From: Scolanthus callimorphus | Lineage: Eukaryota; Cnidaria; Anthozoa; Actiniaria; Edwardsiidae | Direction of reading: 5' to 3' | Length of the DNA: 64,000 nt | Assembly: GCA_033964015.1 (NCBI GenBank) | Contig: CM066917.1 | Span: 25,451,951-25,515,950 of the forward strand | In this document: positions 39,601-64,000 of the stretch, one piece after another | Layout of the letters: the number at the start of each line of letters is the position of its first letter | Numbering within the stretch: position 1 is the stretch's first letter | Notes under the pieces: generated by a model | The model's database searches: none | What the model was told of the DNA's origin: nothing | What the model saw: only the letters and a program-made list of their open reading frames with translations | Made by a program: the position numbers and the translations under genes

Positions 39601-39648
39601 CTTCCCTTCCCTTCCCTTCCCTTCCCTTCCCTTCCCTTCCCTTCCCTT
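39601..39648. repeat. (CTTCC)n microsatellite, integration target
   Basis: Nine to ten copies of the pentamer CTTCC, then directly element sequence. The last repeat (TTCCCTT) matches the spacer of the 34-bp sites at the internal unit junctions, so this is read as the host target site of the array. Confidence 0.85.
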
Positions 39649-39662
39649 ACGTTTCCCAAAAT
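39642..39662. other. Left attachment junction (hybrid recombination site)
   Basis: The right arm CGTTTCCCAAAAT (39650-39662) is intact and the spacer reads TTCCCTTA, against ATCCCTTA at the internal junctions. The left arm ATTTTGGGAAACG is absent and replaced by the host CTTCC repeat. This is what a crossover inside the spacer between an element site and the microsatellite would leave. Confidence 0.85.
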
Positions 39663-39814
39663 GAGAGAAACCCGAAATTCTGCTTACTTGCTTTGAAGTT
39701 TGCTGTAAAACTTGGACTAAAACTAGGTTAGCTTCCAGGGCAGATAACTTGATCGTTTTTTGGGATAAAAACCGAGTTGCACGAGTGCTACAATCAGTCA
39801 ATTGAAAGGGGTCC

Positions 39815-40824
39815 GTTCCTCTATTTTTGTTCCTTTGTTCCTATAATCAAATTAGGAACCAAACAATTGTTCCTTTTCTTAAATATAAGAACAGCCCTAT
39901 GCCCACGAATAGGAACACATTTTGCGTTCACCGGAACAAAAGTATCACTGATTAGGAACCAAACGGTCCTTTGTAATAACAAAGGAACGCATTGTTCCTA
40001 AACATAGAAATAAGCTGGGCCTTTTATATACAATTAGGAATTCACGTTCCTAATCATGACGTTCCTTTTTGAAAAAAGGGAACGTTTTGTTCCCAATAAT
40101 GTAATCAAATGTGAACCATTGTTCCTTTTCACTACGCTAAGGAACCAACAGTTCCGAACTGCTAAGTTCCTATCTCGATGTTTGGTTCTCCTTTGAGGTA
40201 ATTGGGAACACCTGTTCCCATTTACCGAGTTTGACAAGCTCAATCAGGAACTTTTTGTTCCTGAACGCACTCCCAATTAGGAACATTCTGTTCCCATGAC
40301 CAAATTGGACCTAACAAAAGGGGAATGTGAAGTTCCTTTGTGTGAAAATAGGGAACGTGCTGTTCCCAATTAAACAGGAATTCTGTTCCCATGACCAAAT
40401 TGGACCTAACAAAAGGGGAATGTGAAGTTCCTTTGTGTGAAAATAGGGAACGTGCTGTTCCCAATTAAACAGGAATTCTGTTCCCATGACCAAATTGGAC
40501 CTAACAAAAGGGGAATGTGAAGTTCCTTTGCGTGAAAATAGGGAACGTGCTATTCCCAATTAAACAGCAAAAAGGAACAAGGTGGCCCTAAAAAAGGTAA
40601 CACTTTGTTCCCATATGAGCAAATGGGATCATATTGTTCCTTTAGCAATAGGAACATTTTGTTCCACTGCAACACAATTAAGAACAAAGAGTTCCTATGA
40701 TCGACATCGGTCCTTTTCACTAAAGGAACGTATTGGTCTTAGATATGGATCTTGGGAACAAAGCGTTCCGAATTTAAAAGGAACGCTTTGTTCCCTTGAT
40801 GCATATTTGGGAACACAGTGTTCC
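39815..40824. repeat. GGAAC/GTTCC dyad array, unit A
   Basis: At least a dozen dyads of the form GGAAC-N4or5-GTTCC (for example 39984-39998, 40079-40093, 40141-40155, 40205-40218, 40247-40261, 40280-40294, 40352-40366, 40810-40824), plus many single GGAAC or GTTCC half-sites. A 95-bp subunit is repeated three times at about 40,285-40,565. It lies between the recombination site and the recombinase gene. Regular half-site spacing suggests a dimeric DNA-binding protein, possibly encoded by the element. Confidence 0.85.
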
Positions 40825-41178
40825 TTATACTTTAAAGCGATGGGGAGTGTTCTACAATAAAGGCCACAATAACTAACGTAAGATAGGATAGGATCGGATC
40901 GGTTTAAGCATGTTTGAGCAAGAACTCCGCCTAAACATGTTAGGGCAAGTTTGTGCACGCTCATTTGATTATGCGCACCTTCGCCTTTTTATTGGACAAG
41001 ATACAGTTAGGCTCCCAAAGGGGCTACAACATGTTCAGGGCAAGTTTGAACACGCTCACTTTATTTGCCTTGCTATTGGCCAATAAGGGTTTTCGTACTC
41101 TAGGGACACATGGATCGTATACAAACAACTGTCAGGTAAGTATATGTTCATTTCTCGCCTGCTCTCCGCCCAAGAAAG

Positions 41179-42953
41179 ATGTCGAGTAAAAAGTACAAGC
41201 AAGTTGACTGGGCTAAAATTGCAAATGCTTTGCCCAAACCGAAAAGACTTCACTTGGAGAAAGATGAATCCGATGGACTTTTTCACTGCCTAGTGCAGGC
41301 TTGCGATCACGATGGTTTTGGGACTCAAAGAGGCTGCAGGAAACACGTAACTAGAAAGCACGGTTGGTTCTTCTATTTTGATCATAAACCAAGCAATTCA
41401 GAAATTGAGGCTAGTCAAGTTCACGACTGTAATGAAAACGCAAAGAAATCCGAATCCACCAGCGCAAGCAAATCGATTCCAACCTTTGAAGCATCAGGTG
41501 CAATTGCTAAAGAATTCCTTTCTTGGCTCACTGGGAGTGGCGGGGGGTGCAAGAGCGATCGAAAAGCTCAACAAACTGTCAGTAAATGCCTTAAGTTTCT
41601 CAGATTTTGTTGTGATGACGAAGACGAACTGACTTGGAAAAATGTCGACTATAGCTTATGCTCTCCTAACCTTCTCTTTAAATTTGCTGATACGATGCAG
41701 GACACGTGGAGCCTTGGACATGCTGGACGTTTAGGATACCTGGACGCTATTGGGGAGCTAGTGCAATTCCGAAAAGTTAGCGAAGGGTTGTCGGAAACAG
41801 TGGCGAGAGGTTTGTCAGTCACCGAGACGTACTTGAAAAGAGTTCGAAGAACAGTGTCGAAGATGATGAGATTGCAGTGGACCAGCGATCTGGACATCGA
41901 TGTTTTAGAAGCCAAGGGTCACTGGGCATCGCTCGACGAACTACTGGAAGTTGTCTCTTACTACCTTCCTCGATATGAAGAAGTGCTCAAGAAATGCAGG
42001 GACAAACCAGGTAGTGTTTGCTCGGGGGTTTATCGTTTGCCACAAAATTTCTTGCCGTCTACTTGTTTATCAAGGTAAAGGGATCCCGACCTATGACGTA
42101 TCAGTACCTCACAGTTGACATGGTTCGCACAGCGAAAACAAATGGGGGATTCATTGACCAGAAAATGTTTAAAACGGCAGGGAAATACGGTTTTGACTCG
42201 CTCCTTTTGACCGACACTAACATGAAAGTTTTGGATGGATATATCAATCATATTCGCCCTCTGCAGAAACCAGCTTGCAATTACGTGCTAATGACGAGAA
42301 ACGGAGGGCAGCACAACAAGCTCGGTGAGCTCATGAGTAAACTGGTCTTCGATGCCATTGGAAAGTACGTTCATCCGACGCGCTATCGACAGATCGTCGA
42401 GACTGCAAGTTCCAACCAGCTTAGCGCAAGAGAGCAAGACTCGGTTTCAGAGGATCAAAAACACAGCTCGGTTGTAGCAAGAGTGCATTATCAAAAGCAA
42501 AGATCTCGAGAGGTCGCAACGAAGGCGCGCCAATGCTTGGATAAACTACATGGCGACAAGGGAACAAAGCTGGAACAAGATGTGATTTCAAGGCTTTCAG
42601 ACATCTCGTCAGCCTCCTCTCAAGAACAGGATCCGCACCATCTGTCCAGCGGTTCTACAGAAGAAGTAGAAAGTGCAGAGGAGGCGTTGCCACTAAAACG
42701 TGAGTGCAATTTCAATAAAATGCCAAGACGTTCACGCCAGCGCACTTTCAAAGTGGCGAACATCGATCGTACATGCAATAGAAAAAAGGCCATGTTGTTC
42801 ACCCAAGACGAGGACAAATATCTCAAGGCCGGATTGAAAAGGTACGGGTATGGGCAGTGGACAGCCATTCTAAGAGATTCCGAGTTTCATTTCCAGAAAG
42901 GGAGGTCCCCAGACTCGTTGAAAAAGAGAGCGATCGCCAAGTTTCGCCAATAG
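41179..42953 (+). pseudogene. Tyrosine recombinase (zinc finger / Myb), unit A, frameshifted
   Basis: Same gene as at 51283-53058. The run of six Gs at 52128-52133 is five Gs here (42024-42028), which shifts the frame just before the catalytic domain; the downstream part stays open to 42953. One further difference is a missense change near 42,735. Everything else is intact, so either this copy died very recently or the G-run is miscounted in the assembly. Confidence 0.88.
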
Positions 42954-42980
42954 TGTAGAGTTGGAATTTATTAAAGCTTA

Positions 42981-42990
42981 TTTTGGCGCC
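42981..42990 (+). promoter_or_regulatory. E2F-like site upstream of the cyclin gene, unit A
   Basis: TTTTGGCGCC matches the E2F/DP consensus TTTSSCGC and lies 118 bases before the cyclin start codon. E2F sites drive S-phase genes in animals. A chance match is possible. The same site is at 53086-53095 in unit B; I do not see it in unit C. Confidence 0.3.
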
Positions 42991-43107
42991 CTTTCCCTTA
43001 TTGGGACGCTGCTAACCCTTTGCATGCCGGTAGTCAGCGCGAAACTATTAGAGCTGTAACTTTTTGCGTGTTAGGCCTCATTTGCTGTTGAACGCCGAGG
43101 AGCTCAG

Positions 43108-43470
43108 ATGGACGCTGTTATTGATAAGCATCCCGAGTTGTCGCTACGAGATATCAAATTTGCTGGAGAGTTTATACGTGGAGTTTGCGTTTCCAGCTTT
43201 CCAACATCAACGGCCAGTTTGGCGGAAAGTTTGCTCTGGCGCCATTTAAACCGGACAAGAAACCGAAAAAAGTCTACTCTAAGGGAGCTGATCTTGGCGT
43301 GTCTGTTCATTGCCATCAAACTGGAAAACAGTGATATCGAAAGAACCTCCTTATTTATGGACATGGTTTCTACACCGGTGCCAAAAACAGATATCATAGA
43401 GGAGGAGCTTAAAGTACTGGAATCAGTGAATTGGAGGCCCCTGGAATATTACGACATGATAGGACTTTAA
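43108..43470 (+). CDS. Cyclin-fold protein, 120 aa, unit A
   Basis: Identical in predicted sequence to the unit B copy, which holds the full description. The gene follows the recombinase on the same strand after about 155 bases and converges on the helicase gene, whose stop codon is only about 140 bases away. AATAAA lies at about 43,503-43,508 after the stop. Confidence 0.7.
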   Translation: MDAVIDKHPELSLRDIKFAGEFIRGVCVSSFPTSTASLAESLLWRHLNRTRNRKKSTLRELILACLFIAIKLENSDIERTSLFMDMVSTPVPKTDIIEEELKVLESVNWRPLEYYDMIGL

Positions 43471-43610
43471 TAATAGCTCAGTGCTCATTGTGAGAAAAGC
43501 TCAATAAAATATTTTCACGCGTATTTCAATGCTCTGCTCAATTTACTTAAATTCGTTTTAACAACATTTCGTTTTACAACAATCTCGATTCGTTTTAGCC
43601 ACTTTTCAGT

Positions 43611-46600
43611 TTACATTGCTTTATTGAAAAAATTTCCGATTTGCGTTTGACCCCGAGGCAGCTTGCTGGAAGGCCTTGCTTTCTTCGTCTTAACGGGTTG
43701 GGATCGAACTTTGATCCCGCCCCACGCCTGCGACGACGTGTAATCCTCGAACGGCGCCCCTCTTTTTCTGCTAGGTGACTCGCGCAGTAGACCTTCCGCT
43801 GTCAAAATGGACTGACTTGGAGGCGTTTCCACTATGTCTCCTTCAGCAAATCCACTTGACACAAGTGACTCCGGTATTTCTGATAATCAAACAACGGATT
43901 ATAACAGTTTAACACATGGTCTTTTCTATGCAAAGTTTAAGAAATCGAGAAAATGTTTGGCATAACATTAACGGGACTAACCTATTTCTTTCTCGCGGCT
44001 CATCATCGGTGGCTGATGTAGATCGCCTTCGTCCTCGTCGCTTTCTTTCTCGCCGTCGCTTTCACCACCCTGACGTCCGGGGGGATACGGCAAGGGATCC
44101 CACGGGCTTATGATCTCTTCCACTTGATCTTCGCTCACCCATTTCATCGCAAGTGCTGTTTTCTTTCGCTCTTGTAGAACGTACTTCTTCAAGCCTGGTA
44201 TGTTCTCTTCATTAAAGCGCAGGCGAAGAGACTCGGACGCCACTTCCATCCTGTATCGAAGGGCCTGCTTGACGTCGTGAACGGGACACTCGTGCTCTTG
44301 TTTCTGAAGTTCTCGCAACTCCCTCTCTTTTCCAACCACCCAAGGGATCTTGAAATAACTGTCCGCCTTTTCCTTGGCCTCCTTCGCTTCATTTTCCCGC
44401 TTTCCTTCATCTCGCTGTCTTTGGCATTCCGAAGCAGCCCGTTCAAGCTGGGAAGGGAGTTCTTCGATTGGGTTAGATGGTAGGAAATCTGTCACTAAAT
44501 CTTGATCCACGCCGAGTTCAATCAGGTAACGTCGCCTTCTCTCGCGTTGCCCCGCATGCATTTGTCTCACAGATTGCCTCACCTCGTCTACTGTTTCTTG
44601 AGCACAGCTTGCCATGGCCTCTATCATTCTCGCTTTCCCAAAGTCCAGCTCTGATAGGCTTTTTGATTTTGCTCTCTCGAGAGCGTCTACGCGATCAGTG
44701 AGTTGTGTGTCGACCAAAACGTCGTCGGCGTCTTCTTCGGGCTCCTCTTCTTCGGACTCCTCTTCCTCCTCTTCGTTTAGATCGTCTAGAATGGAGTAAG
44801 CAAAACAGCTCGATACAAGTTCTCAAATTATTAGGTGTCTTTTTACCCTTCAAGTCACAGCAAACTACTTCAGATGTTCTATTTCACTCAATCCAATGCT
44901 GAAAAAAAAACTATTAAAAAACATACCTTCTTGGTCCCCCTCGTCATCAGATGATTCTTGGCGTCCTTCGTTCCCTTGACCGTGATCCAGTGTATGCTCG
45001 AAGATATTCCGAAGTTCTGAGGTCGTCAATCCTCGCTGCCCGTAGCTCACGTCACGTTCATCATCTTCAGAATCAGCACATCTTCGTGCCATGCTCGTTG
45101 CCCATACGATGCAATGCATAGGGTGTTCTCTAATCCAACGTGCAGCTTTACTCGACACGTTTGGAAGCGCCTTAAAGTAGTATTTCTTCAACCTAGAAAA
45201 TGGAACGACAACTTTAAGCCACTAATCGTCTACGATTTTCCAAAAGTGGTCTCTGATTCACCAGCCAATTTCAGATTAGCAATCGACCAAAGTTGAGAAT
45301 AACCTACTTTTAAGATTGATAGTGGAAATAGACGCAAGGGACTATGATAAAATAGAGTAATTACCTGTTGTTCATGGCTTGATTGTCCACATCCTCGCCA
45401 AAGTTGAGCTCTTTTTGTGCTGTTATGAATATGGGTGCACGACTGATGAAGGGCTTTGCCGTCTTGTACTTTGTGTCGTGTGCTGATAAACCTCCCTGTA
45501 ATAACACCTTCCAATCATCCAGATCCATCAACGACACTGTCGCTTCATCAAGGTTAATTAGTTGCGTGCTTTCGTCGATTAGAGCTTTGTTGAACTGGCG
45601 CTGCTTCACGATTTTTGCCACTCTCGTCTGATCTATGATCTTGGTAGTAGCGAGAAGCACGGACGTCTTGCCACTGTTTGATGGACCAATAAGGCAAGGG
45701 ATCTTATCCTTGTGGTCGCGCTTGTTCAGTATGAATAAGTTGAGGAAATCCTTGCATAGCTCGGCTGCCTCTTGCTCGTCCAAACTGTTTTCTATTATTT
45801 CTCTGAAGTACTTTGGACCTTCCTCGATTTCGTGATCATAAGGGACAAATGCTCTTGTGGATACCTTTCCCACGTCGTGACGATTTATCACACCATGAAG
45901 AAAACTTTTCGCCTTGAAAGACCAAAACCAGTGGTTCTTTACTTCGACTAGATCGTGATCAATCGTAAATTGCTGTATCGCCTGCGAGTCGGGGTGCTTC
46001 AGTACAGTCAGCAGCTTTGACATATTCTTCAAGAGTCGATCTTTAAACTGTTTGTTCCCTAGGAGGCTGTGTAAGAACTCTTCGATGGAGCATGCGCGCT
46101 GGTACGTGTATGATGCTCCTTCTTGGAGTCGATAAACGTCTCCCTTGTTGACGGCGAAGTTCAGAGTTCTGAGAAATCTCTCCACATCGTTGCATAGGAC
46201 CAGAATCTCGCTACCTAGCATGGGCTGTGCAGCAATATTCTCTTTATCGCCAGATCCTAGTGCTTGAGAATCACGTTCCATGGCCTGAAATACGTCAATT
46301 TGAAGTCCCTTGTCTTTCAATTTCTTTAGACTGGCTTGAAGTAATCCAATGTACTCGGGCTTTATGACAGTCATCCGTACAACTTTGTCTGGACACCTTA
46401 TAATCCTCTCTGTGATGTTCATTCCGCCGTGCGTCAATTCGTCACACAACTCTTGATAACAATGTGAGTATGATTCCTCTAATAAGTCGGCCATATACGA
46501 GTTCTTATGATCTTTCATCGCTTGGCAGATTTTGTTTAACAGCTCTGAAGAATGCTTGGCCTTGTTTCTGGGCATGCCCTAGTGGGATTTACTTCGACAT

Positions 46601-47087
46601 TGCACTTAAGTAGAGCAGATTGTACTACTGACGGCGAAACTGGTGCCCCATTCACTGATTCAATCGCAATCCAATAGGTGATTGCTGGATATCGCTTTTT
46701 TTCAGAAGCCTCTTTGGCGTGCTGTGACTTCTGGGAACTCGGGACAGAGAATGATTGAGTTGCATCTTCTTCCTCGCTTGAATCTTCGACTTCGCCTTCC
46801 TTTTCGTCATTTTTGCGACTTGACGACTTTGGTTCATATGTGGAAATGGATGAAACGAAAAAACAGACGCCGTTTAAACGCGCCACAGTACTGTCGCATT
46901 CATTTCTCTTCGCCACAATGTCATGCCAAGCTTGGATAATTCCTTGCTTCCCACCCTGAAGTCTCCAAATACATTTCACACCGATGATCGTACACCTCTT
47001 CTCCACAACCGGTATAATGTTGGCTTGAATTTCTGCTCGAATCACGGAACTGTTCAGTTGGGGATTCGGTCTATTTCGTCCGTACAT
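43611..47087 (-). pseudogene. SF3 helicase / PIP-box gene, unit A, frameshifted
   Basis: Exons by alignment with unit B: 45365-47087, 44927-45192, 43982-44785 and 43611-43879, preceded by a non-coding exon ending at 47184. The run of four Gs at 56675-56678 is three Gs here (46570-46572), which breaks the frame about 170 codons into the protein, before the helicase domain. Splice sites, Walker motifs and the C-terminal PIP box are otherwise intact. Confidence 0.85.
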
Positions 47088-47236
47088 CTGATAAATAGCA
47101 AAGTATCATGTTAGAAAAATCTTGGACAGAGCGTTTTAGACAACAAATATCGGGTTATAATTTCCAAATGGCAAAGCACTCACCTTCACTTTTCAGCGCC
47201 GTGTACTGGAAGAGATAGGACCGGTTTGGCACCGGC

Positions 47237-47245: not shown

Positions 47246-47264
47246 CACTACAAATAATATATGC

Positions 47265-47943: not shown

Positions 47944-49450
47944 GGCGTATGGTACTTCCAGTCGTAATGGTCTGTTGTATGATACTTACAGTATAATTGA
48001 TGAACAACAGATCATAATAACTGTAAGTGTCATACACGCTATATCAGTCAAATCAGTCATATCAGTGTTTATTGAAAGAGTTATATATTTTCACCTTAAA
48101 ATTGTTTAAAGAATTTTATCAAACACTGATATGACTGATTTGACTGATATAGCGTGTATGATACTTACAGTATAATTGATTAACAACAGATCATAGTTAC
48201 TGTAAGTATCATACACGCTATATCAGTCAAATCAGTCATATCAGTGTTTATTGAAAGAGATATATATTTTCACCTTAAAATTGTTTAAAGAATTTTATCA
48301 AACACTGATATGACTGATTTGACTGATATAGCGTGTATGATACTTACAGTATAATTGATTAACAACAGATCATAGTTACTGTAAGTATCATACACGCTAT
48401 ATCAGTCAAATCAGTCATATCAGTGTTTGATAAAATTCTTTAAACAATTTTAAGGTGAAAATATATAACTCTTTCAATAAACACTGATATGACTGATTTG
48501 ACTGATATAGCGTGTATGATACTTACAGTATCTATGATCTGTTGTTAATCAATTATACTATAATAAATTATAATTATTAATTTTCATTAGTAATTCATGA
48601 ATTAATTTAATTTAATAATTATATTAATAATTATAATTTATTATAGTATAATTGATTAACAACAGATCATAGTTACTGTAAGTATCATACACGCTATATC
48701 AGTCAAATCAGTCATATCAGTGTTTGATAAAATTCTTTAAACAATTTTAAGGTGAAAATATATATCTCTTTCAATAAACACTGATATGACTGATTTGACT
48801 GATATAGTGTGTATGATACTTACAGTATAATTGATTAAAAACAGATCATAATTACTGTAAGTATCATACACACTATATCAGTCAAATCAGTCATATCAGT
48901 GTTTATTGAAAGAGATATATATTTTCACCTTAAAATTGTTTAAAGAATTTTGTCAAACACTGATATGACTGATTTGACTGATATAGTGTGTATGATACTT
49001 ACAGTATAATTGATTAAAAACAGATCATAATTACTGTAAGTATCATACACGCTATATCAGTCAAATCAGTCATATCAGTGTTTATTGAAGGAGATATATA
49101 TTTTCACCTTAAAATTGTTTAAAGAATTTTATCAAACACTGATATGACTGATTTGACTGATATAGCGTGTATGATACTTACAGTATAATTGATTAAAAAC
49201 AGATCATAATTACTGTAAGTATCATACACGCTATATCAGTCAAATCAGTCACATCAGTGTTTGATAAAGTTCTTTAATGAATTTGAAGGTGAAAATATTT
49301 CTCTCAATAAACACTGATATGACTGATTTGACTGATAAAGCGTGTATGAAACTTCCAGTATCTATGGTCTGTCCATAATATAATATTATAAAACAGACCA
49401 TAGTTACTGGAAGTATCATACACGCTATATCAGTCAAACCCACTGTTTGT
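47944..49450. repeat. Palindrome array with AT-rich core, unit A
   Basis: Seven copies of a 179-bp unit. Each pairs arms of about 50 bases (AACACTGATATGACTGATTT through TTACAGTA) around a loop with TAATTGATTAACAACAGATC, so the DNA could form a row of cruciforms. Linkers between arms appear in both orientations. An AT-only palindrome of about 100 bases sits at 48,550-48,650 between units three and four. Position beside the recombination site, symmetry and an easily melted core suggest a replication origin or partition site. Confidence 0.85.
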
Positions 49451-49732: not shown

Positions 49733-49766
49733 ATTTTGGGAAACGATCCCTTACGTTTCCCAAAAT
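49733..49766. other. loxP-like recombination site, A/B junction
   Basis: The left arm ATTTTGGGAAACG (49733-49745) and right arm CGTTTCCCAAAAT (49754-49766) are perfect inverted copies. The 8-bp spacer is ATCCCTTA (49746-49753), which is asymmetric and so gives the site a direction. A 13-8-13 layout is the core-site geometry of Cre/loxP and close to that of Flp/FRT. It lies exactly at the unit boundary and the same unit encodes a tyrosine recombinase. Confidence 0.9.
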
Positions 49767-49918: not shown

Positions 49919-50928
49919 GTTCCTCTATTTTTGTTCCTTTGTTCCTATAATCAAATTAGGAACCAAACAATTGTTCCTTTTCTTAAATATAAGAACAGCC
50001 CTATGCCCACGAATAGGAACACATTTTGCGTTCACCGGAACAAAAGTATCACTGATTAGGAACCAAACGGTCCTTTGTAATAACAAAGGAACGCATTGTT
50101 CCTAAACATAGAAATAAGCTGGGCCTTTTATATACAATTAGGAATTCACGTTCCTAATCATGACGTTCCTTTTTGAAAAAAGGGAACGTTTTGTTCCCAA
50201 TAATGTAATCAAATGTGAACCATTGTTCCTTTTCACTACGCTAAGGAACCAACAGTTCCGAACTGCTAAGTTCCTATCTCGATGTTTGGTTCTCCTTTGA
50301 GGTAATTGGGAACACCTGTTCCCATTTACCGAGTTTGACAAGCTCAATCAGGAACTTTTTGTTCCTGAACGCACTCCCAATTAGGAACATTCTGTTCCCA
50401 TGACCAAATTGGACCTAACAAAAGGGGAATGTGAAGTTCCTTTGTGTGAAAATAGGGAACGTGCTGTTCCCAATTAAACAGGAATTCTGTTCCCATGACC
50501 AAATTGGACCTAACAAAAGGGGAATGTGAAGTTCCTTTGTGTGAAAATAGGGAACGTGCTGTTCCCAATTAAACAGGAATTCTGTTCCCATGACCAAATT
50601 GGACCTAACAAAAGGGGAATGTGAAGTTCCTTTGCGTGAAAATAGGGAACGTGCTATTCCCAATTAAACAGCAAAAAGGAACAAGGTGGCCCTAAAAAAG
50701 GTAACACTTTGTTCCCATATGAGCAAATGGGATCATATTGTTCCTTTAGCAATAGGAACATTTTGTTCCACTGCAACACAATTAAGAACAAAGAGTTCCT
50801 ATGATCGACATCGGTCCTTTTCACTAAAGGAACGTATTGGTCTTAGATATGGATCTTGGGAACAAAGCGTTCCGAATTTAAAAGGAACGCTTTGTTCCCT
50901 TGATGCATATTTGGGAACACAGTGTTCC
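49919..50928. repeat. GGAAC/GTTCC dyad array, unit B
   Basis: Same array as 39815-40824, shifted by 10,104 bases. A few extra half-sites and a GGAAC-N4-GTTCC dyad lie on the other side of the recombination site, at about 49,530-49,575. Confidence 0.85.
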
Positions 50929-51282
50929 TTATACTTTAAAGCGATGGGGAGTGTTCTACAATAAAGGCCACAATAACTAACGTAAGATAGGATAGGATCG
51001 GATCGGTTTAAGCATGTTTGAGCAAGAACTCCGCCTAAACATGTTAGGGCAAGTTTGTGCACGCTCATTTGATTATGCGCACCTTCGCCTTTTTATTGGA
51101 CAAGATACAGTTAGGCTCCCAAAGGGGCTACAACATGTTCAGGGCAAGTTTGAACACGCTCACTTTATTTGCCTTGCTATTGGCCAATAAGGGTTTTCGT
51201 ACTCTAGGGACACATGGATCGTATACAAACAACTGTCAGGTAAGTATATGTTCATTTCTCGCCTGCTCTCCGCCCAAGAAAG

Positions 51283-53212: not shown

Positions 53213-53575
53213 ATGGACGCTGTTATTGATAAGCATCCCGAGTTGTCGCTACGAGATATCAAATTTGCTGGAGAGTTTATACGTGGAGTTTGCGTTTCCA
53301 GCTTTCCAACATCAACGGCCAGTTTGGCGGAAAGTTTGCTCTGGCGCCATTTAAACCGGACAAGAAACCGAAAAAAGTCTACTCTAAGGGAGCTGATCTT
53401 GGCGTGTCTGTTCATTGCCATCAAACTGGAAAACAGTGATATCGAAAGAACCTCCTTATTTATGGACATGGTTTCTACACCGGTGCCAAAAACAGATATC
53501 ATAGAGGAGGAGCTTAAAGTACTGGAATCAGTGAATTGGAGGCCCCTGGAATATTACGACATGATAGGACTTTAA
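53213..53575 (+). CDS. Cyclin-fold protein, 120 aa, unit B
   Basis: A single truncated cyclin box. Helix-3-like LACLFIAIKLE at residues 63-73 corresponds to the cyclin ACLxIAxKxEE signature, and EEELKVLESVNWRPLEYY at 98-115 corresponds to the helix-5 motif (E..VL..L.W.L) that ends a cyclin N-lobe. The N-terminal 35 residues (KHPELSLRDIKFAGEF) may be the entry helix. Inferred role: bind and direct a host cyclin-dependent kinase, either to push cells into S phase or to tie element replication to it. The family normally has about 250-400 aa with two lobes; here only one lobe exists. It lies downstream of the recombinase, convergent with the helicase gene. Unit C keeps the same length and motifs despite DNA divergence, so the protein is under selection. 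Confidence 0.7.
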   Translation: MDAVIDKHPELSLRDIKFAGEFIRGVCVSSFPTSTASLAESLLWRHLNRTRNRKKSTLRELILACLFIAIKLENSDIERTSLFMDMVSTPVPKTDIIEEELKVLESVNWRPLEYYDMIGL

Positions 53576-53715: not shown

Positions 53716-56700
53716 TTACATTGCTTTATTGAAAAAATTTCCGATTTGCGTTTGACCCCGAGGCAGCTTGCTGGAAGGCCTTGCTTTCTTCGTCTTAACG
53801 GGTTGGGATCGAACTTTGATCCCGCCCCACGCCTGCGACGACGTGTAATCCTCGAACGGCGCCCCTCTTTTTCTGCTAGGTGACTCGCGCAGTAGACCTT
53901 CCGCTGTCAAAATGGACTGACTTGGAGGCGTTTCCACTATGTCTCCTTCAGCAAATCCACTTGACACAAGTGACTCCGGTATTTCTGATAATCAAACAAC
54001 GGATTATAACAGTTTAACACATGGTCTTTTCTATGCAAAGTTTAAGAAATCGAGAAAATGTTTGGCATAACATTAACGGGACTAACCTATTTCTTTCTCG
54101 CGGCTCATCATCGGTGGCTGATGTAGATCGCCTTCGTCCTCGTCGCTTTCTTTCTCGCCGTCGCTTTCACCACCCTGACGTCCGGGGGGATACGGCAAGG
54201 GATCCCACGGGCTTATGATCTCTTCCACTTGATCTTCGCTCACCCATTTCATCGCAAGTGCTGTTTTCTTTCGCTCTTGTAGAACGTACTTCTTCAAGCC
54301 TGGTATGTTCTCTTCATTAAAGCGCAGGCGAAGAGACTCGGACGCCACTTCCATCCTGTATCGAAGGGCCTGCTTGACGTCGTGAACGGGACACTCGTGC
54401 TCTTGTTTCTGAAGTTCTCGCAACTCCCTCTCTTTTCCAACCACCCAAGGGATCTTGAAATAACTGTCCGCCTTTTCCTTGGCCTCCTTCGCTTCATTTT
54501 CCCGCTTTCCTTCATCTCGCTGTCTTTGGCATTCCGAAGCAGCCCGTTCAAGCTGGGAAGGGAGTTCTTCGATTGGGTTAGATGGTAGGAAATCTGTCAC
54601 TAAATCTTGATCCACGCCGAGTTCAATCAGGTAACGTCGCCTTCTCTCGCGTTGCCCCGCATGCATTTGTCTCACAGATTGCCTCACCTCGTCTACTGTT
54701 TCTTGAGCACAGCTTGCCATGGCCTCTATCATTCTCGCTTTCCCAAAGTCCAGCTCTGATAGGCTTTTTGATTTTGCTCTCTCGAGAGCGTCTACGCGAT
54801 CAGTGAGTTGTGTGTCGACCAAAACGTCGTCGGCGTCTTCTTCGGGCTCCTCTTCTTCGGACTCCTCTTCCTCCTCTTCGTTTAGATCGTCTAGAATGGA
54901 GTAAGCAAAACAGCTCGATACAAGTTCTCAAATTATTAGGTGTCTTTTTACCCTTCAAGTCACAGCAAACTACTTCAGATGTTCTATTTCACTCAATCCA
55001 ATGCTGAAAAAAAAACTATTAAAAAACATACCTTCTTGGTCCCCCTCGTCATCAGATGATTCTTGGCGTCCTTCGTTCCCTTGACCGTGATCCAGTGTAT
55101 GCTCGAAGATATTCCGAAGTTCTGAGGTCGTCAATCCTCGCTGCCCGTAGCTCACGTCACGTTCATCATCTTCAGAATCAGCACATCTTCGTGCCATGCT
55201 CGTTGCCCATACGATGCAATGCATAGGGTGTTCTCTAATCCAACGTGCAGCTTTACTCGACACGTTTGGAAGCGCCTTAAAGTAGTATTTCTTCAACCTA
55301 GAAAATGGAACGACAACTTTAAGCCACTAATCGTCTACGATTTTCCAAAAGTGGTCTCTGATTCACCAGCCAATTTCAGATTAGCAATCGACCAAAGTTG
55401 AGAATAACCTACTTTTAAGATTGATAGTGGAAATAGACGCAAGGGACTATGATAAAATAGAGTAATTACCTGTTGTTCATGGCTTGATTGTCCACATCCT
55501 CGCCAAAGTTGAGCTCTTTTTGTGCTGTTATGAATATGGGTGCACGACTGATGAAGGGCTTTGCCGTCTTGTACTTTGTGTCGTGTGCTGATAAACCTCC
55601 CTGTAATAACACCTTCCAATCATCCAGATCCATCAACGACACTGTCGCTTCATCAAGGTTAATTAGTTGCGTGCTTTCGTCGATTAGAGCTTTGTTGAAC
55701 TGGCGCTGCTTCACGATTTTTGCCACTCTCGTCTGATCTATGATCTTGGTAGTAGCGAGAAGCACGGACGTCTTGCCACTGTTTGATGGACCAATAAGGC
55801 AAGGGATCTTATCCTTGTGGTCGCGCTTGTTCAGTATGAATAAGTTGAGGAAATCCTTGCATAGCTCGGCTGCCTCTTGCTCGTCCAAACTGTTTTCTAT
55901 TATTTCTCTGAAGTACTTTGGACCTTCCTCGATTTCGTGATCATAAGGGACAAATGCTCTTGTGGATACCTTTCCCACGTCGTGACGATTTATCACACCA
56001 TGAAGAAAACTTTTCGCCTTGAAAGACCAAAACCAGTGGTTCTTTACTTCGACTAGATCGTGATCAATCGTAAATTGCTGTATCGCCTGCGAGTCGGGGT
56101 GCTTCAGTACAGTCAGCAGCTTTGACATATTCTTCAAGAGTCGATCTTTAAACTGTTTGTTCCCTAGGAGGCTGTGTAAGAACTCTTCGATGGAGCATGC
56201 GCGCTGGTACGTGTATGATGCTCCTTCTTGGAGTCGATAAACGTCTCCCTTGTTGACGGCGAAGTTCAGAGTTCTGAGAAATCTCTCCACATCGTTGCAT
56301 AGGACCAGAATCTCGCTACCTAGCATGGGCTGTGCAGCAATATTCTCTTTATCGCCAGATCCTAGTGCTTGAGAATCACGTTCCATGGCCTGAAATACGT
56401 CAATTTGAAGTCCCTTGTCTTTCAATTTCTTTAGACTGGCTTGAAGTAATCCAATGTACTCGGGCTTTATGACAGTCATCCGTACAACTTTGTCTGGACA
56501 CCTTATAATCCTCTCTGTGATGTTCATTCCGCCGTGCGTCAATTCGTCACACAACTCTTGATAACAATGTGAGTATGATTCCTCTAATAAGTCGGCCATA
56601 TACGAGTTCTTATGATCTTTCATCGCTTGGCAGATTTTGTTTAACAGCTCTGAAGAATGCTTGGCCTTGTTTCTGGGGCATGCCCTAGTGGGATTTACTT

Positions 56701-57193
56701 CGACATTGCACTTAAGTAGAGCAGATTGTACTACTGACGGCGAAACTGGTGCCCCATTCACTGATTCAATCGCAATCCAATAGGTGATTGCTGGATATCG
56801 CTTTTTTTCAGAAGCCTCTTTGGCGTGCTGTGACTTCTGGGAACTCGGGACAGAGAATGATTGAGTTGCATCTTCTTCCTCGCTTGAATCTTCGACTTCG
56901 CCTTCCTTTTCGTCATTTTTGCGACTTGACGACTTTGGTTCATATGTGGAAATGGATGAAACGAAAAAACAGACGCCGTTTAAACGCGCCACAGTACTGT
57001 CGCATTCATTTCTCTTCGCCACAATGTCATGCCAAGCTTGGATAATTCCTTGCTTCCCACCCTGAAGTCTCCAAATACATTTCACACCGATGATCGTACA
57101 CCTCTTCTCCACAACCGGTATAATGTTGGCTTGAATTTCTGCTCGAATCACGGAACTGTTCAGTTGGGGATTCGGTCTATTTCGTCCGTACAT
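53716..57193 (-). CDS. Superfamily 3 helicase with C-terminal PIP box, unit B (spliced)
   Basis: Coding exons 55470-57193, 55032-55297, 54087-54890 and 53716-53984 have consensus GT/AG borders and matching phases and give 1,020 aa. SF3 motifs: Walker A GPSNSGKT at 468-475, Walker B LINLDEA at 510-516, motif C with APIFITAQ at 551-558. SF3 enzymes are the hexameric replicative helicases of small DNA viruses and some plasmids or transposons. N-terminal 1-190 is unassigned; an acidic Ser/Glu stretch lies around 100-115. C-terminal to the helicase are two acidic segments, a charged helical or coiled-coil region, and at the very end QTQIGNFF (1009-1016), a canonical PCNA-interacting PIP box. A non-coding first exon (57290 to about 57318) ends in AAG|GTGAGT behind a TATA box. 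The stop overlaps an AATAAA. I infer the replication initiator of the element, recruiting host PCNA. No HUH nickase or primase motif was recognised. Confidence 0.87.
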
Positions 57194-57351: not shown

Positions 57352-57370
57352 CACTACAAATAATATATGC

Positions 57371-57867: not shown

Positions 57868-58050
57868 CTTGAGATTCCTAGAAAGGCCGCTGCCAGAGTT
57901 TACATGCAAATACGCATTCTGATCAATTGAAATGTCAGTTAGTTTGCTATTTCCATTTTGCCAAATCAGCTTAAAATCAAGAAACTGCTCTTGATAGAAA
58001 TTATTGGCGTTTTCTAGACTTCATTCTCGAAAGACTTTTTCACTCTATAG

Positions 58051-59556
58051 GGCGTATGGTACTTCCAGTCGTAATGGTCTGTTGTATGATACTTACAGTA
58101 TAATTGATGAACAACAGATCATAATAACTGTAAGTGTCATACACGCTATATCAGTCAAATCAGTCATATCAGTGTTTATTGAAAGAGTTATATATTTTCA
58201 CCTTAAAATTGTTTAAAGAATTTTATCAAACACTGATATGACTGATTTGACTGATATAGCGTGTATGATACTTACAGTATAATTGATTAACAACAGATCA
58301 TAGTTACTGTAAGTATCATACACGCTATATCAGTCAAATCAGTCATATCAGTGTTTATTGAAAGAGATATATATTTTCACCTTAAAATTGTTTAAAGAAT
58401 TTTATCAAACACTGATATGACTGATTTGACTGATATAGCGTGTATGATACTTACAGTATAATTGATTAACAACAGATCATAGTTACTGTAAGTATCATAC
58501 ACGCTATATCAGTCAAATCAGTCATATCAGTGTTTGATAAAATTCTTTAAACAATTTTAAGGTGAAAATATATAACTCTTTCAATAAACACTGATATGAC
58601 TGATTTGACTGATATAGCGTGTATGATACTTACAGTATCTATGATCTGTTGTTAATCAATTATACTATAATAAATTATAATTATTAATTTTCATTAGTAA
58701 TTCATGAATTAATTTAATTTAATAATTATATTAATAATTATAATTTATTATAGTATAATTGATTAACAACAGATCATAGTTACTGTAAGTATCATACACG
58801 CTATATCAGTCAAATCAGTCATATCAGTGTTTGATAAAATTCTTTAAACAATTTTAAGGTGAAAATATATATCTCTTTCAATAAACACTGATATGACTGA
58901 TTTGACTGATATAGTGTGTATGATACTTACAGTATAATTGATTAAAAACAGATCATAATTACTGTAAGTATCATACACACTATATCAGTCAAATCAGTCA
59001 TATCAGTGTTTATTGAAAGAGATATATATTTCACCTTAAAATTGTTTAAAGAATTTTGTCAAACACTGATATGACTGATTTGACTGATATAGTGTGTATG
59101 ATACTTACAGTATAATTGATTAAAAACAGATCATAATTACTGTAAGTATCATACACGCTATATCAGTCAAATCAGTCATATCAGTGTTTTATTGAAGGAG
59201 ATATATATTTTCACCTTAAAATTGTTTAAAGAATTTTATCAAACACTGATATGACTGATTTGACTGATATAGCGTGTATGATACTTACAGTATAATTGAT
59301 TAAAACAGATCATAATTACTGTAAGTATCATACACGCTATATCAGTCAAATCAGTCACATCAGTGTTTGATAAAGTTCTTTAATGAATTTTGAAGGTGAA
59401 AATATTTCTCTCAATAAACACTGATATGACTGATTTGACTGATAAAGCGTGTATGAAACTTCCAGTATCTATGGTCTGTCCATAATATAATATTATAAAA
59501 CAGACCATAGTTACTGGAAGTATCATACACGCTATATCAGTCAAACCCACTGTTTG
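58051..59556. repeat. Palindrome array with AT-rich core, unit B
   Basis: Same structure and same order of linker orientations as in unit A, with the AT-only palindrome at about 58,657-58,757. It differs from A by a few single-base indels in T- or A-runs. Confidence 0.85.
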
Positions 59557-59839
59557 TATATTGAGAATTCGGCTCAGTTGACCACAGGTATCCCGAATAT
59601 GTCAGACTAGACCTTGCATTGGAGAACATACTGAGGAACAAATGTTCCCATCTACCTTGTTCCCTTTAGCCGTGTTCCTTTTCTACTAAACTGTGACTGT
59701 ATTGTGCGATGTCATTGCAATCGAAGCCACTGAAAATATCATGAAAAGTGCATTTACGGTCTCCTTTCCAGACTGGCATTTCTCGGAAGAAATCACTTGT
59801 TTTCGTGATTTAAAAGACCTTCGAAAACCAGGAACAGAT

Positions 59840-59873
59840 ATTTTGGGAAACGATCCCTTACGTTTCCCAAAAT
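59840..59873. other. loxP-like recombination site, B/C junction
   Basis: Arms 59840-59852 and 59861-59873 and spacer ATCCCTTA 59853-59860 are identical to the A/B junction, in the same direction, as required for head-to-tail units. Confidence 0.9.
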
Positions 59874-60025: not shown

Positions 60026-61035
60026 GTTCCTCTATTTTTGTTCCTTTGTTCCTATAATCAAATTAGGAACCAAACAATTGTTCCTTTTCTTAAATATAAG
60101 AACAGCCCTATGCCCACGAATAGGAACACATTTTGCGTTCACAGGAACAAAAGTATCACTGATTAGGAACCAAACGGTCCTTTGTAATAACAAAGGAACG
60201 CATTGTTCCTAAACATAGAAATAAGCTGGGCCTTTTATATACAATTAGGAATTCACGTTCCTAATCATGACGTTCCTTTTTGAAAAAAGGGAACGTTTTG
60301 TTCCCAATAATGTAATCAAATGTGAACCATTGTTCCTTTTCACTACGCTAAGGAACCAACAGTTCCGAACTGCTAAGTTCCTATCTCGATGTTTGGTTCT
60401 CCTTTGAGGTAATTGGGAACACCTGTTCCCATTTACCGAGTTTGACAAGCTCAATCAGGAACTCTTTGTTCCTGAACGCACTCCCAATTAGGAACATTCT
60501 GTTCCCATGACCAAATTGGACCTAACAAAAGGGGAATGTGAAGTTCCTTTGTGTGAAAATAGGGAACGTGCTGTTCCCAATTAAACAGGAATTCTGTTCC
60601 CATGACCAAATTGGACCTAACAAAAGGGGAATGTGAAGTTCCTTTGTGTGAAAATAGGGAACGTGCTGTTCCCAATTAAACAGGAATTCTGTTCCCATGA
60701 CCAAATTGGACCTAACAAAAGGGGAATGTGAAGTTCCTTTGCGTGAAAATAGGGAACGTGCTATTCCCAATTAAACAGGAATTAGGAACAAGGTGGCCCT
60801 AAAAAAGGCAAGACTTTGTTCCCATATGAGCAAACGGGATCATATTGTTCCTTTAGCAATAGGAACATTTTGTTCCACTGCAAAACTATTAAGAACAAAG
60901 AGTTCCTATGATCCACATCGGTCCTTTTCACTAAAGGAACGTGTTGGTCCTAGATATGGATCTTGGGAACAAAGCGTTCCGAATCTAAAAGGAACGCTTT
61001 GTTCCCTTGATGCATATTTGGGAACACAGTGTTCC
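60026..61035. repeat. GGAAC/GTTCC dyad array, unit C
   Basis: Same dyads as in A and B. Substitutions are scattered, but most GGAAC and GTTCC half-sites are kept while the bases between them vary (for example around 60,780-60,960), which is what binding-site selection would give. Confidence 0.83.
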
Positions 61036-61389
61036 TTATACTTTAAAGCGATGGGTAATGTTTTAAAATAAAGACCACAATAACTGACGTAAGATAGGAT
61101 AGGATCGGATCGGTTTAAGCAGGTTTGAGCAAGAACTCCGCCTAAACATGTTAGGGCAAGTTTGTGCACGCTCATTTGATTATGCGCGTCTTCGTCTTTT
61201 TATTGGACAAGATACAGTTAAGTTCCCAAAGGGGCTACAACATGTTCAGGGCAAGCTTGAACACGCTCACTTTATTTGCCTTGCTATTGGCCAATAAGGG
61301 TTTTCGTACTCTAGGGACACACGGATCGTATACAAACAACTGTCAGTTAGGTATATGTTCATTTCTCGCCTAATCTCCGCCCAAGAAAG

Positions 61390-63174
61390 ATGTCGAGTAA
61401 AAAATTGAAGCAAGTTGAATGGGCTAAAATTGCAAATGCTTTGCCCAAACCGAAAAGACTTCACTTGGAGAAAGATGAATCTGATGGACTTTTTCCCTGC
61501 CCAGTGCAGGCGTGCGATCACGATGGATTTGGGACTCAAAGAGGCTGCAGGAAACACGTAACTAGAAAGCACGGTTGGTTCTTCTATTTTGATCATAAAC
61601 CAAGCAATTCAGAAATTGAGGCTAGTCAAGTTCACGACTGTAATGAAAGCGCAAAGAAATCCGAATCCACCAGCGCAAGCAAATCGATTCCAACCTTTGA
61701 AGCATCAGGTGCAATTGCTAAAGAATTCCTTTCTTGGCTCACTGGGAGTGGCGGGGGGTGCAAGAGCGATCGAAAAGCTCAACAAACTGTCAGCAAATGC
61801 CTTAAGTTTCTCAGATTTTGTTGTGATGACGAAGACGAACTGACTTGGAAAAATGTCGACTATAGCTTATGCTCTCCTAACCTTCTCTTTAAATTTGCTG
61901 ATACGATGCAGGACACGTGGAGCCTTGGACATGCTGGACGTTTAGGATACCTGGACGCTATTGGGGAGCTAGTGCAATTCCGAAAAGTAAGCGAAGGGTT
62001 GTCGGAAACAGTGGCGAGAGGTTTGTCAGTCACCGAGACGTACCTGAAAAGAGTTCGAAGAACAGTGTCGAAGATGATGAGATTGCAGTGGACCAGTGAT
62101 CTTGACATCGATGTTTTAGAAGCCAAGGGTCACTGGGCATCGCTCGACGAACTACTGGAAGTTGTCTCTCACTACCTTCCTCGATATGAGGAAGTGCTCA
62201 AGAAATGCAGGGACAAACCAGGTAGTGTTTGCTCGGGGGATTTAACGTTTGCCACAAAATTTCTAGCCGTCTACTTGTTCATCAAGGTAAAAGGATCCCG
62301 ACCCATGACGTACCAGTACCTCACCGTTGACATGGTTCGCACAGCGAAAACAAACGGGGGATTCGTTGACCAGAAAATGTTCAAAACTGCAGGGAAATAC
62401 GGATTTGATTCGCTTCTTTTGACCGACACTAACATGAGAGTTTTGGATGGATATATCAATCATATTCGCCCTCTGCAGAAACCAGCTTGCGATTACGTGC
62501 TAGTGACGAGAAACGGGGGGCAGCACAACAAGCTCGGCGAGCTCATGAGCAAATTGGTTTTCGATGCCATTGGAAAGTACGTTCATCCGACGCGCTATCG
62601 ACAGATCGTCGAGACTGCAAGTTCCAACCAGCTTAGCGCAAGAGAGCAAGACGCAGTTTCAGAAGATCAAAAACACAGCTCGGTTGTAGCAAGAGTGCAT
62701 TATCAAAAGCAAAGATCTCGGGAGGTCGCAACGAAGGCGCGCCAATGCTTGGATAAACTACATGGCGACAAGGGGACAAAGCTGGAACAAGATGTGATTT
62801 CAAGACTGTCGGACATCTCGTCGGCCTCCTCTCAAGAACAGGAGGTGCACAATCTGTCCAGCGGTTCTACAGAAGAAGTCGAAAGTGCAGAGGAGGCGTT
62901 GCCAGTAGAACGCGAGTGCAATTTCATTAAAATGCCAAGACTCACACGCCAGCGCACTTTCAAAGTGGCCAACATCGATCGTACATGCAATAGAAAAAAG
63001 GCCATGTTGTTCACCCAGGACGAGGACAAGTATCTCAAAGCCGGTCTCAAAAGGTACGGCTATGGTCAGTGGACAGCCATTCTAAGGGATTCCGAATTTC
63101 ATTTCCAGAAAGGAAGATCTTCTGACTCTCTGAAGAAACGCGCGGGGGCCAAGTTTTGCAGGGAAAAGCGCTAG
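61390..63174 (+). CDS. Tyrosine recombinase with C2H2 finger and TRF-like Myb domain, unit C
   Basis: 594 aa, open throughout. All active-site residues seen in the unit B protein are kept (R in KGSRPMTYQYLTV, HPTR, H and Y in KHSSVVARVHY), as are the finger cysteines and histidines and the Myb tryptophan. Differences cluster in the last 300 residues; the C-terminus is changed and three residues longer. In the catalytic half most DNA differences from unit B are synonymous, pointing to purifying selection rather than decay. The CAG/GTAAGT upstream of the start in A and B reads CAG/TTAGGT here. Confidence 0.88.
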   Translation: MSSKKLKQVEWAKIANALPKPKRLHLEKDESDGLFPCPVQACDHDGFGTQRGCRKHVTRKHGWFFYFDHKPSNSEIEASQVHDCNESAKKSESTSASKSIPTFEASGAIAKEFLSWLTGSGGGCKSDRKAQQTVSKCLKFLRFCCDDEDELTWKNVDYSLCSPNLLFKFADTMQDTWSLGHAGRLGYLDAIGELVQFRKVSEGLSETVARGLSVTETYLKRVRRTVSKMMRLQWTSDLDIDVLEAKGHWASLDELLEVVSHYLPRYEEVLKKCRDKPGSVCSGDLTFATKFLAVYLFIKVKGSRPMTYQYLTVDMVRTAKTNGGFVDQKMFKTAGKYGFDSLLLTDTNMRVLDGYINHIRPLQKPACDYVLVTRNGGQHNKLGELMSKLVFDAIGKYVHPTRYRQIVETASSNQLSAREQDAVSEDQKHSSVVARVHYQKQRSREVATKARQCLDKLHGDKGTKLEQDVISRLSDISSASSQEQEVHNLSSGSTEEVESAEEALPVERECNFIKMPRLTRQRTFKVANIDRTCNRKKAMLFTQDEDKYLKAGLKRYGYGQWTAILRDSEFHFQKGRSSDSLKKRAGAKFCREKR

Positions 63175-63383
63175 CTAAAAACTTACTGCTACTATAGAAC
63201 TGGAATGAACCAATCAAACGAGAAAGCGCTCTAGTATAGAAGTGAAATGTCGAATAAAGGCCTGGGAACTACGGTCATTCTTTATGTGATTGCGCAAAGT
63301 ATTCTGGGAAGGCGACGAGTCGCTATTAAGCGCGCAGACATTTCAAGGCAGGTCTCTTACCCGTTGAACCTCGACCACTAAAG
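63175..63383. other. Recombinase-cyclin spacer of unit C
   Basis: Longer than in A/B (209 against 154 bases) and not alignable with it. No E2F-like TTTTGGCGCC is present. It probably holds the cyclin promoter. Confidence 0.4.
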
Positions 63384-63746
63384 ATGGATATCATTGTAGA
63401 TAAACACCCCGAGCTATCTCTGAAGGATTTGAAATTTGCGGGAGAATTTTTGCAAGGAATGTGCGCCCCGAACTTTCCAAAATCTACTGCTATGCTGGCG
63501 GAAAGTCTGCTTTGGAGGCATTTGAACAGAACTACTAACAGGAAAAAGTCAACTTTAAGGGAGCTCATCTTGGCATGCCTTTTCATAGCCGTAAAGCTGG
63601 AAGACAGCGATATGGCCAGGAATAACCTATTTATGGACATCATTTCTACGCCTGTGCCGAGGGAGGACATTATCGAACAAGAACTTCACGTGTTAGAATC
63701 GGTCAATTGGAGACCCTTGGAATATTATGAGATGATTGGACTTTAA
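63384..63746 (+). CDS. Cyclin-fold protein, 120 aa, unit C
   Basis: Same length as in A and B. The cyclin-box core is kept (ILACLFIAVKLED and a LHVLESVNWRPLEYYEM end), while the N-terminal third differs more (for example LQGMCAPNFPKS). The DNA differs throughout, so conservation of the core implies that the protein is functional. Confidence 0.7.
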   Translation: MDIIVDKHPELSLKDLKFAGEFLQGMCAPNFPKSTAMLAESLLWRHLNRTTNRKKSTLRELILACLFIAVKLEDSDMARNNLFMDIISTPVPREDIIEQELHVLESVNWRPLEYYEMIGL

Positions 63747-64000
63747 ATCGAGTATATGTTTTACTCTCTATATCCAAACGGAACTACGAAATGGGCATTA
63801 AAACTAAGACATTAAAACACAACAATGATGTAAGCTACTTGCTTTCCTTTAATATTTGTGAAATTGATCACCTGCTGTGAACAAATAATTCGAGTAAACG
63901 TGTACAAACAAACAAACAAGCAGCATTTACTCTTAGACATTCTATAGCAATTGGCTTGTGTTTCAATAACTATACACAAATTGTCCCTTTTTCATGACGG
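63747..64000. other. Unit C 3' sequence, nothing recognised
   Basis: AT-rich DNA with a (CAAA)n-like stretch at about 63,905-63,918. I cannot find the PIP-box exon that sits at this position in A and B; it may be further right or lost. Confidence 0.4.

Follow-up and report, generated by a model that had tools for sequence, protein, structure and literature searches.

What kind of DNA fills the right-hand part of the Scolanthus callimorphus stretch analysed here (the window: 64,000 nucleotides, C7:25451951-25515950, in an assembly of 597 Mb and 302 contigs), where units of about 10 kb with genes for a tyrosine recombinase, a cyclin and a superfamily 3 (SF3) helicase follow one another from position 39,642 to the end? 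Our answer is that the units probably belong to a family of plasmid-like integrating mobile elements, each a recombinase-integrated circle of about 10 kb with its own SF3 initiator and a cyclin. The evidence that carries this answer is the architecture of a recombination site, reciprocal junctions with a short core, tandem arrays with a site at each junction, and a gene set and gene order conserved in subfamilies A and B.

A six-unit array and its recombination site

A preliminary description made from the letters of the window alone had reported two near-identical units and a third, diverged unit, head to tail. The arrangement was confirmed, with units 1, 2 and part of unit 3 at offsets of 10,104 and 10,107 bases; the extent was not, since the sequence to the right of the window continues the array to six head-to-tail units in 61 kb, all inside a (CCTTC)n microsatellite. 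The array half-sites are at C7:25491599, 25501703, 25511810, 25526322, 25535238 and 25543952; the array closes with a right half-site whose end is at 25552669, so that units 4-6 and part of unit 3 lie beyond the window.

The site TTTTGGGAAACG-ATCCCTTA-CGTTTCCCAAAA consists of perfect 12-bp inverted arms flanking an 8-bp spacer, which is the layout of loxP and FRT. It was found at two positions in the window, which are the two unit junctions, and no third copy was found there at up to three mismatches, nor any in 100 shuffles; the identical site is present at all three later junctions. The earlier claim of a recombination site at every junction therefore stands for the unit junctions in and beyond the window and fails at the left end of unit 1, which is a host/element hybrid. 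Sites of tyrosine recombinases are given, in the passages of PMC3212892 that deal with them, as inverted arms of 11-13 bp around a spacer of 6-8 bp in which the crossover takes place, and the 12-8-12 layout with host junctions inside the spacer agrees with this. Imperfect palindromes of the same dimensions (12-bp arms, 8-bp spacer, at most one mismatch) occur twice in the 39.6 kb of host flank; therefore the architecture by itself is not rare, and it is the position at junctions that counts.

At the left end of the array, host (CCTTC)n runs into the spacer TTCCCTTA and then the right arm, and at the right end the order is left arm, ATCCCTTC and once more (CCTTC)n. A crossover between host TTCCCTTC and element ATCCCTTA within their common TCCCTT yields exactly both of these ends.

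Beyond the host boundary, one substitution and seven one-base indels separate units 1 and 2 over about 10.1 kb, and this near-identity reflects a recent amplification. All seven indels sit within homopolymer runs, and two of them break the recombinase and helicase frames of unit 1, which are open in unit 2. Differences that are mainly in homopolymer length look like residual sequencing error, as would be expected if the array were an assembly artefact. Such an artefact, like contamination or a tandem cluster of ordinary host genes, is barely credible: units differing in content and length are joined through exact sites, host DNA is present at both ends of the array, and dozens of insertions lie on many contigs, so that the genome-wide junctions contradict it.

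The first 900 bases of unit 3 are more than 99% identical to units 1 and 2, most of its recombinase is a few per cent diverged, its cyclin region is diverged by about 23-34%, and the sequence beyond the cyclin cannot be aligned. Unit 3 proved to be 14.5 kb long, with a 96%-identical recombinase and a distant helicase (pieces about 31-56% identical) that lies past the end of the window and also ends in a PCNA-interacting (PIP) motif, QAEITKFF. Units 4, 5 and 6 (8.9, 8.7 and 8.7 kb) retain the cyclin and the N-terminal domain of the helicase; in reading these units and in translated searches of their sequence the ATPase part of the helicase was absent, and units 5 and 6 have interrupted recombinase frames. 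The description of three genes per unit is therefore accurate for units 1 and 2, both complete in the window, must be completed from outside it for unit 3, which shows only recombinase and cyclin there, and does not extend to units 4-6 with their partial helicase. The composition of units 3-6 looks like modular exchange together with non-autonomous derivatives carried in trans. Units 4-6 (C7:25526322-25552669; L010, L011, L106, L149) have the appearance of deletion derivatives, in a satellite-like state beside fuller units.

Junctions and relatives across the genome

The right-side half-site has 79 copies in the genome (75 exact) and the left-side half-site also 79, and reversed control patterns gave 0. 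Sequence was fetched for 77 of the 79 right-side places, the remaining two being the window's own unit junctions; 16 of these 77 carry the other arm (tandem) and 61 carry host DNA, which reduce to 50 distinct flanks. Across these 50 left flanks spacer position 1 is mixed (C in 16, T in 13, A in 11, G in 10). Position 2 is T in 49 of the flanks, position 3 is C in 48 and position 7 is T without exception; the A of position 8 is imposed by the search pattern. The 20 host bases adjoining the spacer are 72% pyrimidine, compared to 56% farther away.

On the other side, 43 of the 63 non-tandem right ends were read (40 were fetched, mostly chosen for a left half-site within reach, and 20 are unread), and these show the spacer ATC, set by the pattern, followed by five mixed host bases. 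For 41 of these 43 ends a partner, a host left junction, was found on the same contig and strand; TC is also present at the left junction in 39 of the 41 pairs, which fit a reciprocal crossover; several of the 41 have common host flanks, probably as duplicated loci, and hence not all are independent. The spans of the pairs are 8.0-10.6 kb in 20 cases, 5.6-6.8 kb in three and longer, up to 61 kb, in 18. In at least 12 host sites, judged by eye, a repeat such as (GTCT)n, (CTAT)n or (CCTTC)n continues on the far side of the insertion, and no target duplication was visible by eye at the paired insertions, all of them occupied sites. Copies on C14 and C89 and one on C5 are exceptions to the junction rule. 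Taken together, the junction data point to site-specific recombination of a circular form, and with dozens of host junctions in the spacer, 39 of 41 pairs of them reciprocal, they give strong support to the proposal that a tyrosine recombinase integrates the element at the junction site.

Several individual places may be recorded here. At C18:601133 (L107) the host left flank is that of window positions 37000-39700 (about 97-99% in three pieces), and the insertion has the spacer TTCCCATA and fewer CCTTC units in the same microsatellite as the window array; it looks like an independent insertion into that microsatellite, in another haplotype or a duplicate. The stretches C7:8283425-8303433 (-) and C7:9355071-9375127 (+) appear to be one insertion that was duplicated and inverted, with shared host flanks, and the right flank of L120 (C7:8283365-8283469) is partly N-masked. 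Within the window, positions 29119-29385 hold a pyrimidine-rich 22-bp minisatellite of 10.6 copies, of the kind targeted elsewhere and without an insertion here.

Searching with helicase exon 1 gave 88 matched genome stretches (76 of 785 candidates scored, some copies spread over several rows), a figure that is not a copy count; nor can this search show the absence of a helicase, the distant helicase of unit 3, for example, being unlisted. Among the relatives, the junction of a tandem pair on C3 (59% helicase identity) reads TTTTTGGGAATG-GTGATATA-CATTCCCCAAAA, with one mismatch between the arms, and the ends are CTGATATA on the left (attL) and GTGATCAT on the right (attR), and C13b (71% helicase identity) has attL ATGATATA and attR ATGAGGAT, followed by (ATGAGG)n. 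A third subfamily (50% helicase identity), seen at one C2 locus, has TTTTGGGGAATG-GTTATTAT(TTA)n and (ATT)n-ATTATTAC-CATTCCCCAAAA, and no joined site was seen at that one locus. Arms or spacers vary between subfamilies, and the layout of the site and the crossover within the spacer are constant; the core common to host and spacer is TC in subfamily A, TGA in B and TTATTA at the only C locus seen. Subfamily C helicases occur mostly every 8.6-11 kb in C2:27514102-27535000 and C4:25744342-25857863, and the one spacing that was read has about 370 bp between neighbours, beginning and ending in (TTA)n-type host DNA; this may represent repeated insertions in one satellite and not a true tandem array.

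The order recombinase (+), cyclin (+), helicase (-) was found at C6, C13a, C5, C13b, C3 (two units) and C4, that is, at six of seven other loci, with some recombinase frames broken or split; at the seventh, C3b, the fetched stretch cuts the element and only cyclin and helicase are visible. This recurrence bears on a Crypton-like reading, in which a tyrosine-recombinase transposon is only excised and reinserted, the helicase and cyclin are carried genes that serve host fitness or donor-site repair, and the circle never replicates itself. The junction chemistry and the circular intermediate match what is proposed for Cryptons in the relevant part of PMC3212892, and derivatives lacking the ATPase persist in the array. 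We nevertheless regard this reading as unlikely, because the same three genes are kept in the same order in subfamilies A and B, and because an initiator-type helicase with a PIP motif, beside a positionally kept GGAAC cluster (see below), resembles replication machinery. Animal Cryptons, compared here by description, appear in that part of PMC3212892 as a recombinase only, with no C-terminal domain and no terminal repeats found, which does not fit the present element.

Relatives listed with names come only from corals and a sea anemone, the lineage having been checked for two of them. In another assembly recombinase and helicase relatives each lie on a contig of 831,635 bases, which is supporting evidence only, the linkage in the element's own genome being direct; a match of relatives on a 6,183-base contig is weak, as the same test gave eight near coincidences (20 bases or less) among short contigs. 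No relatives were found in phage records (tblastn), nor in GTDB contigs with the recombinase alignment, the helicase not having been used there. The animal setting assumed at the outset is supported by these coral and sea anemone names, by the size of the assembly (597 Mb) and by long Gypsy/BEL-like and LINE-like reverse transcriptase frames, recognised by eye, in the left flank (window 4939-12731). That flank also holds a stretch of about 2.2 kb in which degenerate (AAC)n-type repeats are overlaid by periods of 72-140 bp (window 20636-22835).

We propose that each unit would exist as a circle of about 10 kb with a single loxP/FRT-like attachment site (attP), free monomer circles carrying the spacer ATCCCTTA or ATCTTATA. 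The element's tyrosine recombinase would cross the circle into host DNA that matches the spacer over a short core only, many of the targets being microsatellites or other simple, pyrimidine-rich repeats. Each end would become a host/element hybrid with no visible target duplication, and integration of more circles at the palindromic site would then build tandem arrays with a full site at each junction.

Genes and repeat arrays of the unit

The 591-residue recombinase of unit 2 comprises a C2H2-like N-terminus, a core-binding domain with a SAM-like fold, a catalytic part and a C-terminal TRF-like Myb domain. Among 120 listed relatives R304 is present in 119, K332 in 120, H399 in 119, R402 in 118, H429 in 118 and Y438 in 117, and we take these residues to be the catalytic R-K-HxxR-H-Y set. 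Pfam and PHROG profiles matched no recombinase family, no Crypton-type domain (DUF3504 / GCR1_C relatives) was matched in Pfam by 15 members at E ≤10, and a Foldseek search of the PDB with the recombinase model was empty at E ≤0.001; the structure models are weak in the catalytic parts of both recombinase and helicase, with pLDDT mostly below 50 in the catalytic domain of the recombinase. Telomere targeting by the TRF-like Myb domain was considered and is not claimed: 6 of 21 TTAGGG/CCCTAA hexamers of the window lie in the element stretch, and 0 of 61 host flanks have telomere repeats.

The cyclin gene of the preliminary description is real, with Pfam Cyclin_N matches at 1.2e-9 and 2.5e-11. 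The protein has one box only, and its C-terminal residues are MIGL in both units 2 and 3 as well as in C3, C4 and C6; the nearest PDB chains to the unit 3 cyclin are cyclin E1 (E=3.3e-4), with v-cyclin also matched (E=0.0035). Between units 2 and 3, 93 of 120 cyclin residues are identical, with about 63 of 78 synonymous sites changed (saturated), and comparison with the C3 and C4 cyclins gave pS 0.75 and pN 0.16. For the recombinase of units 2 and 3, dS is 0.17 and dN 0.023. These values indicate strong purifying selection on both recombinase and cyclin, which have been working genes over long times.

The helicase reads by homology as one gene of four coding exons with predicted GT-AG introns, and a separate 281-residue acidic frame would be its third exon. 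Its assignment as an SF3-type helicase with a PIP motif holds through its family, the window protein alone having no significant match. Of 25 members at E ≤1, 20 matched Parvo_NS1 (best 1.7e-5), 18 DUF5906 (3.2e-6), 12 PPV_E1_C (3.9e-7) and 22 the P-loop GTPase family MMR_HSR1 (best 0.0018), and D5 turned up in fold searches. Walker A is present in 32 of 32 long relatives. The PIP consensus is Q-x-x-[ILM]-x-x-[FY]-[FY] near the terminus; a PIP-like core is present in 30 of the 32 and the strict Q in 11. No HUH motif was seen by eye; one PDB sequence search was without matches and another gave only GTPase, Lon and FAP119 rows.

The resemblance of the helicase family to NS1, E1 and D5, and the v-cyclin among the PDB matches, recall an endogenised DNA virus with a papilloma/parvovirus-like helicase, a cyclin as in some herpesviruses, and capsid genes lost or supplied by a helper; in virophages an SF3 helicase and a tyrosine recombinase likewise occur together. 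We consider such an origin very improbable and reject a plain virus, because the element's own site delimits the unit, an identical short gene set is seen in subfamilies with 59-71% helicase identity, and searches of IMG/VR by protein patterns (helicase, recombinase and both alignments) and by the exact site found no relative. In addition, unit 2 has no ATG frame of more than 97 residues, and hence no capsid frame found, beyond the three genes, no capsid profiles having been run and an intron-split gene being possible; a 121-codon stop-to-stop frame that spans the unit junction is without a Pfam match.

Both of the cis-repeat arrays reported earlier were borne out. Exact GGAAC-N5-GTTCC dyads number 33 in the window, 11 per unit, compared to 0.08 expected, and lie between the site and the recombinase; in two subfamily B units examined, 19 GGAAC/GTTCC motifs cluster at the same place, only 2 of them as an N5 dyad. 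We propose that this array is an origin or initiator-binding array. The second array contains 43 ATCAGT/ACTGAT hexamers (57,901-59,650), 42 of them in triplets with 9-bp spacing and alternating direction. These AT-rich tandem repeats precede the right end of the unit, and corresponding repeats of 254 bp and 168/83 bp occur in C3 and C13b.

With these parts, replication of the circle may start from the GGAAC-dyad array beside the site through the E1/NS1/D5-like SF3 helicase, with PCNA recruited by the PIP box, and the cyclin may activate a host cyclin-dependent kinase (CDK) and favour S phase. The AT-rich iterons could have a partition or enhancer role, and the C2H2-like and Myb domains of the recombinase would bind DNA. 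We are most confident of the circular intermediate, less so of replication that starts at the GGAAC array with the element's initiator and PCNA, and least of S-phase stimulation by the cyclin; self-replication and coupling to the cell cycle, as stated in the preliminary description, are what we infer from gene content. The positions of all features are given in Table 1.

Table 1. Features of the array within the window.
Feature	Position	Strand	Basis or detail
Host (CCTTC)n microsatellite, target of the whole array	39600..39648	.	resumes after C7:25552666
Left host/element hybrid site (attL)	39642..39661	+	spacer TTCCCTTA and right arm CGTTTCCCAAAA
Unit 1 GGAAC array	39829..40824	.	start via unit offset
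Unit 1 tyrosine recombinase	41140..42953	+	two overlapping frames from a one-base difference in a G run
Unit 1 cyclin	43108..43470	+	start placed by unit offset
Unit 1 helicase exon 1	45361..47105	-	frame broken at a G run
Unit 1 AT-rich iteron repeats	47976..49434	.	end via unit offset
Full site, units 1/2 junction	49734..49765	+	12-bp inverted arms, spacer ATCCCTTA
Unit 2 GGAAC/GTTCC array	49933..50928	.	46 motifs in 49921-50960, 11 dyads, 3 tandem 95-bp copies
Unit 2 tyrosine recombinase	51283..53058	+	591 aa, open
Unit 2 single-box cyclin	53213..53575	+	120 aa; Pfam Cyclin_N E=1.2e-9
Unit 2 helicase exon 4	53716..53984	-	PIP box at end; splice signals and PIP ending
PIP box QTQIGNFF	53731..53754	-	
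Unit 2 helicase exon 3, acidic C-terminal extension	54087..54890	-	homology
Unit 2 helicase exon 2, end of ATPase domain	55032..55297	-	homology; GT-AG introns either side
Unit 2 helicase exon 1, coding for most of the SF3-type ATPase after a putative origin-binding-like N-terminal domain	55470..57193	-	Walker A GPSNSGKT
Unit 2 AT-rich 179-bp repeats	58083..59540	.	14 ATCAGT iteron triplets, 9-bp spacing, alternating; long inverted repeats
Full site, units 2/3 junction	59841..59872	+	identical to units 1/2 site
Unit 3 GGAAC array	60040..61035	.	start via unit offset
Unit 3 tyrosine recombinase	61390..63174	+	open
Unit 3 cyclin	63384..63746	+	

Comparison with known systems

The preliminary description knew of no family with this gene set, and within the open-access literature, which was the scope of our search (Repbase and Dfam lie outside it), no description of it was found. 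We know of no native chromosome-integrating plasmid described in animals. With somewhat less assurance than for the family itself, we favour placing the elements in a new superfamily of mobile DNA in animals, made up of nuclear plasmids that are autonomous and have a PCNA-coupled SF3 initiator, a G1/S-type cyclin that tunes the host cycle and a Cre/Flp-like short-core recombinase for entering and leaving microsatellites, with deletion derivatives as satellites. If true, this would supply one, its copies recent and its integration rule readable, and it would join the questions of a non-viral origin of papilloma/parvovirus-type replicons and of the coupling of mobile-element copying to the host cell cycle. 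The pairs of site and recombinase, which differ in arms or spacers between at least three subfamilies, would form a natural set of site-specific recombinases with microsatellite landing pads.

Because no capsid frame was found, the gene set and ends are unlike those of animal Cryptons, and no description turned up in the open-access literature searched, we file the element under none of the systems compared. Cryptons are tyrosine-recombinase DNA transposons of fungi, oomycetes and animals, including Nematostella; they too are eukaryotic DNA elements that a tyrosine recombinase moves, a circle being the presumed intermediate, and the present element differs in having a loxP-like palindromic site, two more conserved genes, arrays that resemble origins, a Myb C-terminus and the lack of a DUF3504 profile match. 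The yeast 2-micron plasmid is episomal, recombines two inverted FRT sites by Flp to amplify, uses host initiators and partitions by Rep1/Rep2. The element shares with it the logic of a circular replicon, a tyrosine recombinase, a site with an 8-bp spacer and repeat arrays beside the origin, whereas it has one site per unit, chromosomal integration, its own helicase and a cyclin.

Papillomavirus E1, polyomavirus LT and parvovirus NS1 replicons combine an SF3 initiator with a short dyad or pentamer array and interference with the cell cycle. Here the likeness lies in the SF3 initiator helicase, possibly an OBD/HUH-like N-terminal fold, the motif array and a cell-cycle gene, and the difference in the absence of a capsid frame among those found, an intron-containing helicase with a PIP motif, and recombinase-driven integration. 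Virophages, polinton-like viruses, prokaryotic integrative plasmids and P4-type satellites unite an integrase and an SF3-type helicase in one integrating replicon; the element differs in that no virion or conjugation genes were seen, and in its animal host, its cyclin and its C2H2-like and Myb recombinase. The integrases of Tn916 and CTnDOT, which are bacterial conjugative elements, cross over with about 2 bp of obligatory identity in an otherwise heterologous spacer and accept many loose targets, and the short-core crossover rule of the element is similar, the likeness being one of rule. The parts of the element are of known kinds, and their combination, the cyclin and the animal setting appear in nothing that we found in the open-access literature.

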